Source of the DNA: Halorarum halophilum
GTDB lineage: Archaea > Halobacteriota > Halobacteria > Halobacteriales > Haloferacaceae
Direction: 5' to 3'
Length of the DNA: 64,000 nt
NCBI RefSeq assembly: GCF_013401515.1
Contig: NZ_CP058529.1
Location: 2,542,001-2,606,000 of the forward strand
Shown: positions 40,001 to 45,612 of the stretch, in pieces
Numbering within the stretch: the first letter of the stretch is position 1
How the letters are laid out: each line of letters starts with the position of its first letter
Notes under the pieces: generated by a model
Told to the model about the DNA's origin: nothing
Seen by the model: only the letters and a program-made list of their open reading frames with translations
The model's database searches: none
Translations under genes and position numbers: made by a program

Positions 40001-40627
40001 ATCGACCCCAGCGAGATCGACGACGAGGCGCACAACATGGACATCGTCCGGACGTACCCGCGGGAGTTCTACGAGGCGACTCTGGAGATGGCCGACCCGG
40101 AGGAGGTGGACATCAGGATCGGCGACGACACGCTCGGCACCGACGACGAGTACCGCGGGTTCCACCACACCCACGACACCACCGACATCGCGCTCGGGCC
40201 GGACCTCTCGGCGTACAAGACGCTCGGCTCGATGATGGACAAGATGGACGCCCAGCTCGCGCTGGCGCGGAAGCTCCGCGCGGTCGACGAGACCGACGTG
40301 GCCGAGCGCGTCATCGAGTACCACTTCCTGCCGGACCTCATCGGGAACCTCCGCGCGTTCTCCCGACAGGAGACGCGGTGCCTGGACTGCGGGGAGAAGT
40401 ACCGCCGGGTGCCGCTCACGGGCGACTGCCGGGAGTGCGGGGGACGGATGACGCTCACGGTCCACCAGGGGTCGGTGAACAAGTACATGGACACCGCCAT
40501 CCGCGTCGCCGACGAGTTCGACTGCCGCGAGTACACGAAACAGCGCCTCGAGATCCTCGAACGTTCGCTGGAGTCGGTGTTCGAGAACGACAAGAATAGG
40601 CCCTCGACCATTGCAGATTTCATGTGA
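37094..40627 (+). CDS. polC: DNA polymerase D large subunit (DP2)
   Basis: The catalytic subunit of the archaeal replicative polymerase PolD. The 1177-residue product has no intein. It shows NVYYAGPIRSAGGTAQALSV and EEVSGFRDLERVDTN in the N-terminal half, a zinc-binding region (CPDCDEKTFENLCSECG; CEECGTVCEP; CPRCERE), the double-psi-barrel active site NCDGDEDCVMLLMDGLLNFS, and a final Cys4 zinc module (CLDCGEKY ... CRECGG). A GTG start is used. The last codons (NRPSTIADFM from 40594) are AT-richer than the rest. A second, GC-rich version of the C-terminus is stranded at 42838-42876, which suggests that the 3' end was replaced by integration. The small subunit is not in the window. Confidence 0.95.
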   Translation: MRPDDERYFARIEDRLDEAFDRAGAAKGQGKDPVEEIEIPVARDMADRVENILGIPGVAERVRELEEEFSREEAALELVTDFVDGAVGDFDSREGKIEGAVRTAVALLTEGVVAAPIEGIDRVELLQNDDGTEFVNVYYAGPIRSAGGTAQALSVLVGDYARSLLGIEEYSARSDEVERYAEEVALYDTETGLQYTPKDEETKFIAKHMPIMLDGEATGDEEVSGFRDLERVDTNSARGGMCLVLAEGIALKAPKIQRYTRQLDEVDWPWLQDLIDGTYYESDDADAGDGEGEDADGEAAAENGDDLAEGESDATGPTGPKRAEPAKKFLRDLIAGRPVFSHPSEPGGFRLRYGRARNHGFATGGVHPATMHLVDDFLATGTQIKTERPGKAHGVVPVDSIEGPTVRLANGDVRRVDDPAEALEIRNGVEEILDLGEYLVNYGEFVENNHPLAPASYVREWWEQDLDAAGADLQALRDDPRMDLADPDADQALAWVEEFDAPLHPTYTYLWHDISVEEFDVLTDAVAEGEVTGGVLALENTDTVRRALETLLVEHSQTPDALRVPDFRPLLRQLGVTDGLRREWEYDDLPAEAREWASGDNAVKAVNEVASFTVRERAPTRIGNRMGRPEKSESRDLSPAVHTLFPIRDFGGSQRSVGEAARERTEHGRGVFDVLLGERICPDCDEKTFENLCSECGTHTEPHFECEECGTVCEPDESGRVECPRCEREVESVDWQRVDLNAEYWDALDALGEREAGFEILKGVKGLTSANKTPEPMEKGVLRAKHGVTAFKDGTVRYDMTDLPVTAVRPEELDVTAEHFRELGYETDIDGEPLVHDEQLVELKVQDIVLSDGAADHMMKTADFVDELLTDFYDLDPFYEVNGRDDLVGELVFGMAPHTSAAVVGRVIGFTSAAVGYAHPYFHAAKRRNCDGDEDCVMLLMDGLLNFSKQFLPDKRGGQMDAPLVMSSRIDPSEIDDEAHNMDIVRTYPREFYEATLEMADPEEVDIRIGDDTLGTDDEYRGFHHTHDTTDIALGPDLSAYKTLGSMMDKMDAQLALARKLRAVDETDVAERVIEYHFLPDLIGNLRAFSRQETRCLDCGEKYRRVPLTGDCRECGGRMTLTVHQGSVNKYMDTAIRVADEFDCREYTKQRLEILERSLESVFENDKNRPSTIADFM

Positions 40628-40887
40628 AACCAGTAGAGGAGACGGACCTACGCCTGCAAAAAACCAAGCAGAAAAACGCCCTATCTAATTATACTTTGCA
40701 AGTCTACTTCGCGTATCGTCCCTCCTCAGGTTGAATGGTAAGTACAGAGAATCAACATTTCACCGCCAGCTCCAGCGGCCACTCCTAAAGTAGTGATTCG
40801 CGCAGACTACGTTGTACACGGGCTGCCAGTTGGGTTCCCTCTCTGGTTGACTATCCCCTCCCGCGAAATTCGGAGCCCAGATTGGCC

Positions 40888-42615
40888 TCACTCGGGATCT
40901 CGAGACCCGGGTATCGCCATTGCAACCCCGTAATACGCCCAAAGCAGGAGAAGAACGTTCCCAGTTGCGACGAGGAGCAGGACGAGACTGCTCATAATAC
41001 CGACTTCAGTGGGGACGTTGATAAGCGAAAATTCGCCAACCTGAATAATCGACATCGTATCGTGAATCTCCGAGCGTTCCGGTCGTTCTCGCCAGTAGTT
41101 CCACGCCAGAAGCAACATGGTGCCGAGCGCGAGGGACACGATCGCTCGAAGCCACGCGCGAGCATACCTCAGCGTTCCTGCGGCGTCGGCGAGGTGATGT
41201 GGGGAGAATCCACGACGAAGGTCGCGCGTACGTGCGACGAGAACCAGCGCAGCAGGATACAGGTACGTCGCGAGGAGCGAGAGGGTAGCGAAGGCGATGA
41301 GGGCGAGGAACGGGTCTATCGGTGTCCTCGAAAGCCAAGCCGGCCAGACGGCGATCAAGAGGTTGTAGATATTACGAGCGAGATACCACGATCCGACGAC
41401 GAATGCTGGCACTCCCGTCAATACATTACCGACCACCGCGTGCGGCCACGAGTTCTGACTATTCCAGATAAAGAGGAACAGTAGTGGGGGGAGTCCATAC
41501 ACGACCCAGAGCCCGATAGCTCGCACCCCGTCGGCGATGAGTCCCCACAGCGGGCCGAACGATGGGATGGTGGTGTTCGTCGACGAGTCGTTAGCGCGGA
41601 CGAGTCCGGCCACGTAGCCCATCAGCAGGACGACGGACGGGACCGACCAGAATGCGCCGAGCAGGACGGCGACGAGGATGGTTTGCCCGGAGCGGATGTT
41701 CTGACTGACGAACGTGACTACCTCAGAGTCTAGCCGCGAGTGGAGGTGGTCCCCGAGCGAGAATTTGTCCCGTGGCGGGACAGAAACGCGGCCGAGCGCG
41801 GCGTATCCCACCAGGAAGATGGCGAAGCTCAGGAAGCCCCGGAGCAGTTCAAGCGACTCTCGAACAGCCTCGACGAGGATGGGAACGTCGACTGGAACGA
41901 GGACAGAGGCGACCAGTTGTGATGGCATGAGTAGAACGAGCGTCCCCACGAACCATGTGAGGACGAATACGATCCAGTTCCGGGCGTAGGTCAGGCTTCG
42001 GAGAATCGGACTGAGGTCAGAGAACGAAAAGCCGTCCGAGAGTGTTCCACGGGCAGCGAAATTCAACAGGGCGGCTGGACCCACATACATGGCGAACAGT
42101 AACCCGAGGAGGGCCGGGTCGACCAGCACGCCGGCTGTAACCTGCCCCGGTGCGGAGATCCCGATGTCGAGGGCAGTGTACAGTTGCAGGAGAAACGAGA
42201 CATTCCCGAGTAGCGAACTGAAGATCGCGAGGAGGAGAGCGCTGCTACTTTCCGACTCGAAGATGGAGAGGTACCCTGCAAACGCGACGAGAATGTATAC
42301 AGTCCAGATTACATAAGCTCGGACACCGTCGAATACCAATGCGACCCAACGGTCGAATCTGGGCGTGTCCGAAGGGTGCGGCGTGACGTCCTCTCCGGGA
42401 GCGGAGGGTGGAACGTATCTGAGAATCCGGACGAAAAAGCCCATCACCAAGAAGCTCGGTATGACCAGCCAGACTGCGTAGCCCCAGAGCAGTCCGCCGA
42501 GGAGAAGAGTCGGTCCGATGTTCGGTATCGAACGGACGTCTTGAGCAAGAGTCGAGGCGAACTGCCGGAGGGTAGTGCCTGCCTGCAAGAAATCGGCTGG
42601 AATCTGCACGTACAA
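40888..42615 (-). CDS. DUF4013-like polytopic membrane protein
   Basis: A 575-residue membrane protein with about a dozen hydrophobic helices. It contains two repeats of the DUF4013-type pattern: a helix, then a 'GFFVRILRYV...F.RWVALVFDGVRAYVIWTVYIL' arrangement (~60-125), and again FGPLWGLIADGVRAIGLWVVYGLP (~355-380). Such proteins are common in haloarchaea and have no known function. Codon use is visibly AT-richer than the surroundings, and the gene is the only one between the two polC 3' ends, so it is probably cargo of an integrated segment. Confidence 0.8.
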   Translation of the reverse strand: MYVQIPADFLQAGTTLRQFASTLAQDVRSIPNIGPTLLLGGLLWGYAVWLVIPSFLVMGFFVRILRYVPPSAPGEDVTPHPSDTPRFDRWVALVFDGVRAYVIWTVYILVAFAGYLSIFESESSSALLLAIFSSLLGNVSFLLQLYTALDIGISAPGQVTAGVLVDPALLGLLFAMYVGPAALLNFAARGTLSDGFSFSDLSPILRSLTYARNWIVFVLTWFVGTLVLLMPSQLVASVLVPVDVPILVEAVRESLELLRGFLSFAIFLVGYAALGRVSVPPRDKFSLGDHLHSRLDSEVVTFVSQNIRSGQTILVAVLLGAFWSVPSVVLLMGYVAGLVRANDSSTNTTIPSFGPLWGLIADGVRAIGLWVVYGLPPLLFLFIWNSQNSWPHAVVGNVLTGVPAFVVGSWYLARNIYNLLIAVWPAWLSRTPIDPFLALIAFATLSLLATYLYPAALVLVARTRDLRRGFSPHHLADAAGTLRYARAWLRAIVSLALGTMLLLAWNYWRERPERSEIHDTMSIIQVGEFSLINVPTEVGIMSSLVLLLVATGNVLLLLWAYYGVAMAIPGSRDPE

Positions 42616-42837
42616 CCATGAACTTCGATTTCTGGAAAGGATTGTTCCCTAGTGCAAACTGGTTAATAACCACCTGATGTGTAGGCCACACCCCATTCAG
42701 GGTCAGAATCACCGACTAAATACGACGAATCACTGACCGCACCGCTCTCGAAGGCCAGCCAACAACTCGCTGGTCGGCTACTGCGGGGTTCACGTCAAAA
42801 GAGCGACCGGTTGGACTTCAACTTCGAAGGTGATCTC

Positions 42838-42876
42838 GACAAGAACAAGCAGAGCGGGATCGCGGACTTCATGTGA
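42838..42876 (+). pseudogene. Displaced 3' end of polC
   Basis: Thirteen codons, DKNKQSGIADFM plus TGA, in high-GC haloarchaeal codons. They align with the last codons of the intact polC (DKNRPSTIADFM). No upstream coding sequence continues it, so it is a remnant. Its GC-rich codons make it the better candidate for the original end of polC in this lineage. Confidence 0.65.
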
Positions 42877-42930
42877 TCGCAAGTCCGGCGATACGCCCGG
42901 ACGGGAAGTCACCGTACCACCTCACTCCGG

Positions 42931-43050
42931 TCAGTCCACCTTTTCCAGTTCGATGAGCGTCACGCCCCATTCCCGTCACGGGTGTGGGCCGGCGTCGACG
43001 TTCAGCCACTCGACCTCCGAAGATCTGGCCGAGTTCATACGTCCTCCCGT
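42931..43050 (-). pseudogene. Fragment of a gene once convergent with polC
   Basis: On the minus strand, SEVEWLNVDAGPHP then a stop is followed 16 bases on, in another frame, by VTLIELEKVD and a stop. The two pieces read like the frameshifted C-terminus of one protein. Upstream sequence is not coherent. The family was not recognised. Confidence 0.3.
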
Positions 43051-43429
43051 GTCGCGGTGCAGCGTGCTACTACATCGGGGAGATGGACCCTCCGGTACGT
43101 CTGATTCCGGATCGGAGATTCGGGGACCGAACGGCGATACCTCGGCGGAGAGCAGAAGCAGGTCCGTCCGTGGAGCAACCCTCCGGACGGACCGCCAGGT
43201 TGGTTGTACCCACGTATGCCAGCGTGGGGCCCACGGGCTCCTCTGGCGGATGTGCCGGCTGCCGCAGGCGGCGATACACGCCCTCAGCCGGACGGCCTCA
43301 TCGGGCACCGCTACCCGATATCGGTTCACGCTCGTGACTATCGGGTGTTCTCTCGGTCGGTACTGTTGGCCAGAGTCGCTTAGTCGTTGGGATTTCACGA
43401 AATCGGCCTGGCCGAGTCGCCTGTGATGC

Positions 43430-43460
43430 GTTGTCGAAAGAGGTTTATACCGCGACTCGG
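43430..43460 (+). promoter_or_regulatory. Promoter upstream of the chimeric gene
   Basis: A BRE-like CGAAAGAGG followed by TTTATA (about 43444-43449). Initiation would fall near 43470-43475, leaving a leader of about 210 bases before the ATG at 43687, unusually long for a haloarchaeal gene. Confidence 0.5.
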
Positions 43461-43686
43461 GAATCCCCAACTGACGATTTCATCCGTTCGCACACTGGAG
43501 AGCACGACGTATCGTTCCCCTCGCTGTCGAGGACCGGGTTCTCGACGGGTGAGGGAAGGACGGCCCGCTCGCGCCACCCGGTCGGATCGAAATCACGTCG
43601 GCAACTCGCCAGCCGAGCCGATTCGTGCGGTACGGATTCACCGCTCCCGTTGGCCAACCGTCCGCGAGTGCCGAGCGAACATATGC

Positions 43687-45174
43687 ATGAGTACGAACGA
43701 TAGCTCGACTTCCCTCGAAACCGTCCGCGCCGAACTGGAGACAGAAATTCCCGACGACCTCTCGATCTCTCGGGTCACGTACGAGGGGCCGGAGCTCGTC
43801 ATCTACACGGAGACGCCTCGCGAGTTCGCAGAGCGGGACGGACTGATTCGCCAGCTCGCCAGCACCATCCGAAAGCGAATTACCGTTCGCCCGGTGGCAG
43901 GTACCCAAGCGAGCCCGGAGAACGCCGAACCACAGATCCTCGACTTGATCCCCGAGGACGCGGGCATCTCGAACCTCCAGTTCTACCCGACGATCGGTGA
44001 GGTGCTGATCGAGGCCGAGAAACCCGGCCTCGTCATCGGCCGGCGCGGAAGCACCCTTCGGGAGATCACGCGGGCGGTCGGCTGGACGGCGGAGGTCCTC
44101 CGGACGCCACCGATGGAGTCGTCGACGGTCGACAACGTCCGGAACTTCCTCATGCAGGAACGCGACGAGCGACGCGCGTTCCTCGAGCGCGTGGGCGAGC
44201 GGATCTACCGCGAGCCGACGCACGACACCGAGTGGGTCCGCGTGACGACGCTCGGCTGCTGTCGCGAAGTCGGGCGCGCGAGTTTCGTCCTCAGCACGCC
44301 GGAGACGCGCATTCTCGTCGACTGTGGGGACAAACCCGGTGCCGACGGCGAGGTACCGTACCTGCAACTCCCCGAGGCGAACCCGATCGACATGAAGCGG
44401 TTTCGCGAGATCGGCCGTGAGGGCGACGGCGTCCTCTGCTACATCGAGGACTGTACCAACGCGAACAAGAAAGGCCGAACGCCGAGCGAGGCGGTCGCCC
44501 GCAGTCAGCTTCGGGACGTCATGGGGAGTCTCGAGGACTACGATGGCGGCATCGTCGCGACCACGTTCTCGAGCCACATCGCGCGCGTCTCGAGCCTCGT
44601 CGAATTCGCGAACGACATCGGCCGCGAACCCATCCTCCTCGGTCGGTCGATGGAGAAGTACTCCGGGACGGCCGATCGCATCGGCGCCGCGTCGTTCCCC
44701 GACGATCTCGCGATGTACGGCCACCGGCGGTCCATCGAACAGGCGTTCACGCGCATCATGAACGAGGGCAAGGAGAACTTCCTGCCCGTCGTGACGGGCC
44801 ACCAGGGCGAACCGCGCGCGATGCTCACCCGGATGGGCCGCGGCGAGACGCCGTACGACCTCGAACAGGGCGACAAGGTCATCTTCAGCGCCCGGGTCAT
44901 CCCCGAACCGACGAACGAGGGCCAGCGGTACCAGTCCGAGATGCTGCTCGGGATGCAGGGTGCGCGCATCTACGACGACGTCCACGTCTCGGGTCACCTC
45001 TCACAGGAGGGTCACTACGAGATGCTCGACGCGCTGCAACCCCAGCATATCATCCCCGCACACCAGAACATGAAGGGGTTCTCCGGCTACGTCGACCTCG
45101 CTACGAGTCAGGGATACGAGGTCGGTCGCGATCTCCACGTCACCTCGAACGGAAACGTACTCCAGTTGAGATAG
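43687..45174 (+). CDS. Chimera of FttA/aCPSF1 (N-terminal) and RNase J (C-terminal)
   Basis: A 495-residue intact frame made of parts of two beta-CASP ribonucleases. Residues 1-~230 match aCPSF1/FttA: two KH-type domains ([39 protein letters not shown] with its GxxG loop), then [20 protein letters not shown] and [20 protein letters not shown], the start of the metallo-beta-lactamase domain. From ~232 it becomes haloarchaeal RNase [61 protein letters not shown], and SGH and PAH motifs near the end. The HxHxDH metal motif of both parents falls in the missing part, so hydrolase activity is doubtful while RNA binding could persist. Parent enzymes are ~640 and ~450 residues. Confidence 0.85.
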
Positions 45175-45612
45175 GCGAACAGCCGATTAGCGCCTCCGCC
45201 TCCTCGATTCGCTGGCAGTGACGTGGTGGTAGCCCGTGGCCTCTGGAGGTCACTCCGTCGCTGCATTCCGACCTCGAAAACGACTGTGTGGTCGCAGGGT
45301 CGGACACGCATCCGGGCAGCCGCTACCCTGGTGAGAGCAACGACGAGAACAAGCCGAGAGGAACTGTGCTTCGTGTAGACGTGAACGCCGAAGACCCGTC
45401 GGTCAGCCAGTCCACGGCGAGTCCGGGTGGATGCTCGGAACGGAACGAGGAGAAACCGACAGAGGGAGACGCGAATCGGAGACCCAGGGCTTCCGTACCG
45501 AACCCGAACCGACCTGTCCCCGACGAGAATCGAAAAACCGCAAGACTACAGTCCGAAACGGAACCCCGCCCCGGACCGAACTGCTCTTTTCGCCCCCGCA
45601 CCTCGCCCGGAC
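45175..45612. other. Intergenic stretch upstream of panE
   Basis: About 440 bases with no supported gene. It contains the left arm (45535-45562) of an inverted repeat that brackets panE. Open frames through it encode shadow-like Arg/Pro-rich sequence. Confidence 0.4.
45535..45562 (+). repeat. Left inverted repeat bracketing panE
   Basis: A 28-base sequence whose inverted copy lies at 46593-46620; 25 of 28 positions match, with an invariant CAGTCCGAAACGGA. It ends 50 bases before the panE ATG. Confidence 0.65.

Follow-up and report, generated by a model that had tools for sequence, protein, structure and literature searches.

An in-frame FttA/RNase J fusion gene without a metal site in Halorarum halophilum, probably a young deletion scar

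The 64,000-nucleotide stretch of Halorarum halophilum DNA analysed here (the window) contains a gene that joins, in one frame, the N-terminal part of an FttA/aCPSF1-like protein to the C-terminal part of an RNase J and lacks the metal site of both. The fusion is real as assembled. Its parents belong to an accessory gene pair, fttA2 and rnj2, and the gene is probably a young scar left by a deletion within that pair, with at most incidental RNA binding.

Results

Domain organisation of the chimera

A preliminary description, made from the sequence alone, had read the gene as an in-frame chimera of two β-CASP ribonucleases without the metal site, and on both counts it was right. The frame (43687-45174, forward strand) encodes 495 residues with no internal stop. 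Of the NCBIfam models, that for aCPSF1/FttA (TIGR03675) covers residues 11-232 only and that for RNase J (TIGR00649) residues 231-494 only; the scores, 259.9 and 226.1 bits, lie well below the respective family cut-offs of 580.2 and 400. Pfam places the FttA KH domain PF17214 at residues 9-69 (E 1.6e-23) and KH_2 at residues 105-140, giving the tandem N-terminal KH domains by which FttA/aCPSF1 is recognised. The RNase J β-CASP domain PF22505 is found at residues 288-407 (E 2.6e-19; 69.7 bits, above the cut-off of 27) and RMMBL at residues 428-459. When intact FttA and RNase J proteins are aligned with it, the chimera shows in order the two KH domains (KH1, KH2) and the first metallo-β-lactamase (MBL) strands of FttA, and then RNase J, which begins with DMKRFREIG, from the start of its β-CASP part to its natural C-terminus.

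In an alignment of the chimera with 45 intact parents, metal-site motifs 1-4 are missing: the gap comprises the entire block with HAHLDH (FttA) or HGHLDH (RNase J) and the later N-terminal ligands. The product would therefore have no nuclease activity. The C-terminal ligand motifs HVSGH (433-437) and PAH (457-459) are kept. The C-terminus is that of RNase J, and the C-terminal dimerisation motif of FttA (12-13 residues) is gone. The product, of 55 kDa, would combine an unbroken KH1-KH2 module for RNA binding with the β-CASP/C-terminal part of RNase J. AlphaFold2 (AF2) gives pLDDT values mostly of 80-95 over the KH domains (about residues 8-140) and is not confident in the remainder. An intact rnj2 control with the same kind of alignment also scored low (mean 51.5), which shows that the limit for the C-terminal part is set by the alignment and need not lie in the protein; AF2 is uninformative there.

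Table 1. Features of the chimera and its surroundings (positions in the window)
Feature	Position	Strand	Basis
fttA2-derived part: KH1-KH2 and first MBL strands (residues 1-234)	43687..44388	+	fttA2 identity, PF17214, AF2
rnj2-derived part: β-CASP and C-terminal MBL/RMMBL remainder (residues 231-495)	44377..45174	+	rnj2 identity, PF22505, RMMBL
Junction, matching both parents; 9-nt core ACCCGATCG	44376..44388	+	blastn overlap of fttA2 and rnj2 matches; aligned DNA
Promoter and start of the leader kept from fttA2: TATA-like GGTTTATACC, conserved ACGATTTCATCCGTTCGCAC..CTGGAGAG	43442..43502	+	Alignment; shared with the fttA2 upstream region of Haloplanus and others
Conserved, GC-rich element ahead of the promoter, able to form hairpins	43149..43320	+	~70% identity, three Haloplanus genomes; fold z -2.4
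Block that the two sister species lack in their syntenic polC-panE interval; DUF4013 membrane-protein gene and chimera	40660..45565	.	blastn against G001 and G002; Pfam

The accessory parents fttA2 and rnj2

The genome encodes full-length fttA and rnj elsewhere, as had been anticipated, at 67% identity to the N-terminal half and 78% to the C-terminal half, respectively. The view that duplicates of these resident genes were the parents is overturned by the trees, in which both halves nest within the accessory fttA2 and rnj2 clades (FastTree; individual node support moderate), ruling out duplication of resident fttA and rnj as the origin. The N-terminal part is 85% identical to fttA2 of Haloplanus (genomes G110 and G107; 79-85% for fttA2 among the matches listed) and the C-terminal part is 88% identical to Haloplanus rnj2 (86-88% for rnj2 among the matches listed). 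A single known continuous protein is likewise ruled out, since the matches split near residues 231-234 among those listed.

These extra copies occur in part of the Haloferacaceae and beyond, at sites on plasmids and islands of haloarchaea. In at least five genomes fttA2 lies upstream of rnj2 on the same strand, the positions equivalent to the joint being separated by 13.4 kb in G110 (Haloplanus sp. HW8-1, with the cassette on plasmid NZ_CP098520.1), 10.8 kb in G114, 9.1 kb in G109, 13.5 kb in G181 and 6.5 kb in G027. The order is reversed in Halegenticoccus soli (G019), and the cassette is also carried by a Halorussus aquaticus plasmid. Neither this species nor its genus yielded an intact fttA2-rnj2 cassette, so the deletion itself was not observed.

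The island that carries the pair holds paralogues of RNA-processing and transcription genes (aCPSF1/fttA2, RNase J, RNase Z, RNA polymerase subunit M, eIF1A and a macro-domain gene) together with DUF5786, amphi-Trp, MFS and antiporter genes, in sets that vary. It is seen at NZ_CP098520.1 9000-36000 (L188), at two further loci (L189 and L190) and in G109, G114, G181 and G027, and spans plasmids and chromosomes of several haloarchaeal families. A limited literature search found no description of it. PADLOC returned no defence match for the chimera, fttA2 or rnj2; the macro-domain protein of the island (L188:16306-16815) matches DarG of PADLOC weakly (E 6e-8).

The joint

The fttA2 matches end at 44387-44389 and the rnj2 matches begin at 44376 to 44383 (blastn), and the aligned junction DNA shares a 9-nt repeat, ACCC[C/G]ATCG. 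In G027, ACCCCATCG is present in both parental genes in the identical frame, where the chimera reads ACCCGATCG. At the protein level the join is PEANPI followed by DMK. The short homology that the preliminary description had supposed at the join is thus borne out. The word it gave for the FttA side is not: PEANPI stands at the join position in all close fttA2 proteins and is a signature of fttA2, not of housekeeping FttA, which mostly reads PEALGAGA. Removal of 6.5-13.5 kb between the matching points at the repeat would give exactly this in-frame gene.

Genomic setting and upstream region

The polC-panE interval is short in both sister species, and the block that holds the chimera (Table 1) has no counterpart there except for a 39-bp stretch (blastn). 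The absence of the block from the sister species suggests that the fttA2-rnj2 cassette arrived from outside and was probably laterally acquired. The 39-bp stretch (42836-42874; compare 40590-40627) matches the 3' end of the sister-species polC (DP2) and sits 2.2 kb beyond the 3' end of the window's own polC. It may mark an insertion at the polC end that introduced the DUF4013 gene.

Positions 43149-43521 share ~70% identity with the sequence preceding fttA2 in three Haloplanus genomes; both the TATA-like GGTTTATACC and the leader motif are conserved. The hairpin-forming element within this region is possibly an RNA gene or a regulatory element. Several of its helices keep pairing across four sequences, a lone copy is present in the sister species G001 (C1:2422586-2422744, reverse strand), and a comparison with Rfam gave nothing above gathering.

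The genome is 99.85% complete in four contigs, with the chimera inside the 3.68-Mb contig. Neither the lost parts of fttA2 and rnj2 nor the intervening macro-domain gene were found elsewhere in it; the genome-wide search returned only the resident fttA and rnj plus a distant relative at 38% identity. An RNase Z match at 60% identity is taken as the resident rnz, the remaining matches being weaker paralogues.

Occurrence of the fusion

No match covered both halves in 60 relatives or, among the matches listed, in 170 family genomes, in keeping with the earlier expectation that the halves do not form one continuous known protein. The joined arrangement, for which a search of other haloarchaea had been suggested, did not turn up in those family genomes (matches listed). 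No second fusion was found in a junction scan of 84,980 species of GTDB r220 (from which its own genome was possibly left out) or among 72,556 plasmids. A search of viral contigs found no relative.

Conservation and branch rates

Of the columns in which intact proteins are conserved to 97% or more, ~232 in all (84 of 231 plus 148 of 263), the chimera deviates at none. If it were unconstrained, this would bound neutral divergence since the fusion at ~0.006 per site, which is small beside the pairwise dS of ~0.6-1.4 to most of its nearest relatives. The chimera is therefore either very young or under constraint, and both fit the absence of deviations equally.

Branch omega was estimated with a home-made two-ratio codon model. 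It is 0.045 for the N-terminal part (background 0.050) and 0.072 for the C-terminal part (background 0.031; 2dlnL 5.2), and omega = 1 is rejected for the whole branch, whose rate is well below neutral. The KH part, at 0.038-0.045, resembles intact genes, and the β-CASP part keeps its conserved residues at a branch omega of 0.05. Relaxation of the tail (residues 408-495) is hinted at by an omega of 0.18 against 0.026 (2dlnL 5.4), with a nominal p of ~0.02 that does not survive multiple-test correction. Branch omega was unstable in at least one control (5.4 for the N-terminal part on the G027 branch), so small differences in omega are not interpreted. Further, if the branch is mostly pre-fusion, its low omega has no bearing on selection of the fusion. 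The dN/dS check that had been proposed gives a branch omega below 1, which need not extend to selection on the fusion itself.

An unannotated C-terminal rnj2 fragment on the Halobaculum magnesiiphilum plasmid NZ_CP081960.1 (L191:4001-4399) is open over 133 residues and 86.5% identical. It adjoins an IS200/IS605 element, is followed by DUF5786 and RNA polymerase subunit M genes, and is another eroding copy of the fttA2/rnj2 island. Openness and conservation are consequently no proof of function. The earlier suggestion that selection may have kept the frame is not borne out, since a very young fusion would account for the conservation just as well.

Discussion

The gene is probably a young deletion scar. 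The ancestor would have held a laterally acquired accessory cassette in which fttA2 preceded rnj2 in the same orientation. The loss of several kilobases would then have joined ACCC[C/G]ATCG in fttA2, just before HAHLDH, to the copy of this repeat that directly follows the N-terminal MBL half in rnj2, the frame being kept by chance, as the anatomy of the gene suggests. This may have happened in the present genome or before the cassette arrived. The chimera would be transcribed from the retained fttA2 promoter, and any activity it has would presumably be binding of its KH module to U-rich 3' ends, as the isolated KH domains of methanogen aCPSF1 do. Cassette order, nested halves, overlap at the joint, the upstream region, missing leftovers, absence from the sister species, uniqueness among the collections searched and the lack of deviations at conserved columns all point to this origin. 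On the other side, a whole-branch omega well below neutral leaves room for a constrained older fusion. The deletion, the lateral arrival, the loss of nuclease activity, expression and every function considered here are inferred.

The readings that give the protein a role draw on the same data. The preliminary description had proposed a dominant-negative regulator, on the grounds that both parents oligomerise through retained regions. For FttA this does not stand: both dimerisation and termination depend on the final 12-13 residues (PMC8716108), and their loss weakens the dominant-negative idea. With the KH module kept and the dimer tail lost, the chimera could compete for RNA but would be unlikely to poison FttA dimers. 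It is conceivable, if unlikely, that the chimera is a selected RNA-binding regulator whose KH module sits on U-tracts at terminators or on nascent RNA, in competition with resident FttA but with no need to dimerise with it. The KH part is fully conserved, evolves like intact genes and is predicted with high confidence; the promoter of fttA2 has been kept; and aCPSF1 KH domains on their own bind U-tracts in a methanogen (PMC8716108). In a pre-termination structure the distal FttA protomer provides KH-side contacts to RNA (PMC11616081). Termination by FttA, however, requires both the nuclease and the dimer (PMC8716108; PMC11616081), and the fusion was seen in a single genome, where youth explains the conservation equally well. 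The purifying signal on the branch, present over the whole length of the gene, would also suit an older fusion kept for some other, perhaps structural, role, with the RNase J part as a scaffold for the KH module. This we consider distinctly unlikely, as the joint was found in no second species and the signal on a mostly pre-fusion branch need not concern the fusion.

Binding of an RNase J partner through the β-CASP part is possible provided that this part folds. aRNase J of Haloferax is an essential homodimer that also partners RecJ3/4 (PMC10470531), and the chimera could enter resident RNase J or the RecJ3/4-aRNase J complex as a dead subunit and so reduce RNA decay or direct it to other targets. 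Retention of the conserved β-CASP residues at low omega suits such a role, but the half of the MBL fold that carries the metal site is gone, which makes folding of the C-terminal part doubtful, and the tail has the nominally raised omega noted above; we regard this as very unlikely. Most improbable of all is a false assembly of two loci at the 9-nt repeat. Such an error would fit a joint that lies at a short repeat and was found in no other genome, but it should have left the other halves of fttA2 and rnj2 behind, whereas only the resident genes and the 38% relative were found, and the gene lies inside its contig.

Set beside known proteins, the chimera shares KH1, KH2, the first MBL strands and the promoter of fttA2 (residues 1-234, up to 85% identical) with FttA/aCPSF1, but is without HxHxDH, the FttA β-CASP part and the C-terminal dimerisation tail. 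With aRNase J it shares the β-CASP domain and all that follows it up to the natural C-terminus (88% identical to rnj2), but carries KH domains in place of the N-terminal MBL half (motifs 1-4, HGHLDH). CPSF100 and INTS9 keep the MBL/β-CASP fold. Like them, the chimera is a β-CASP protein without a working metal site. CPSF100 and INTS9, however, pair with an active partner (PMC11616081), whereas half the MBL domain of the chimera is missing and no partner is known. There is a small chance that it is a selected, nuclease-dead KH-β-CASP protein combining the U-tract reader of FttA with an RNase J scaffold and tuning termination or RNA decay. If so, it would stand as a prokaryotic counterpart of the inactive partners CPSF100 and INTS9, made in one deletion step.

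The fttA2/rnj2 island represents a further complement of genes for RNA processing and transcription, carried on haloarchaeal plasmids and islands, that has drawn less notice. As a deletion scar, the chimera would be a readable case of how a single deletion can build a composite gene from two members of the same fold family, at a stage when parents and joint are still recognisable.
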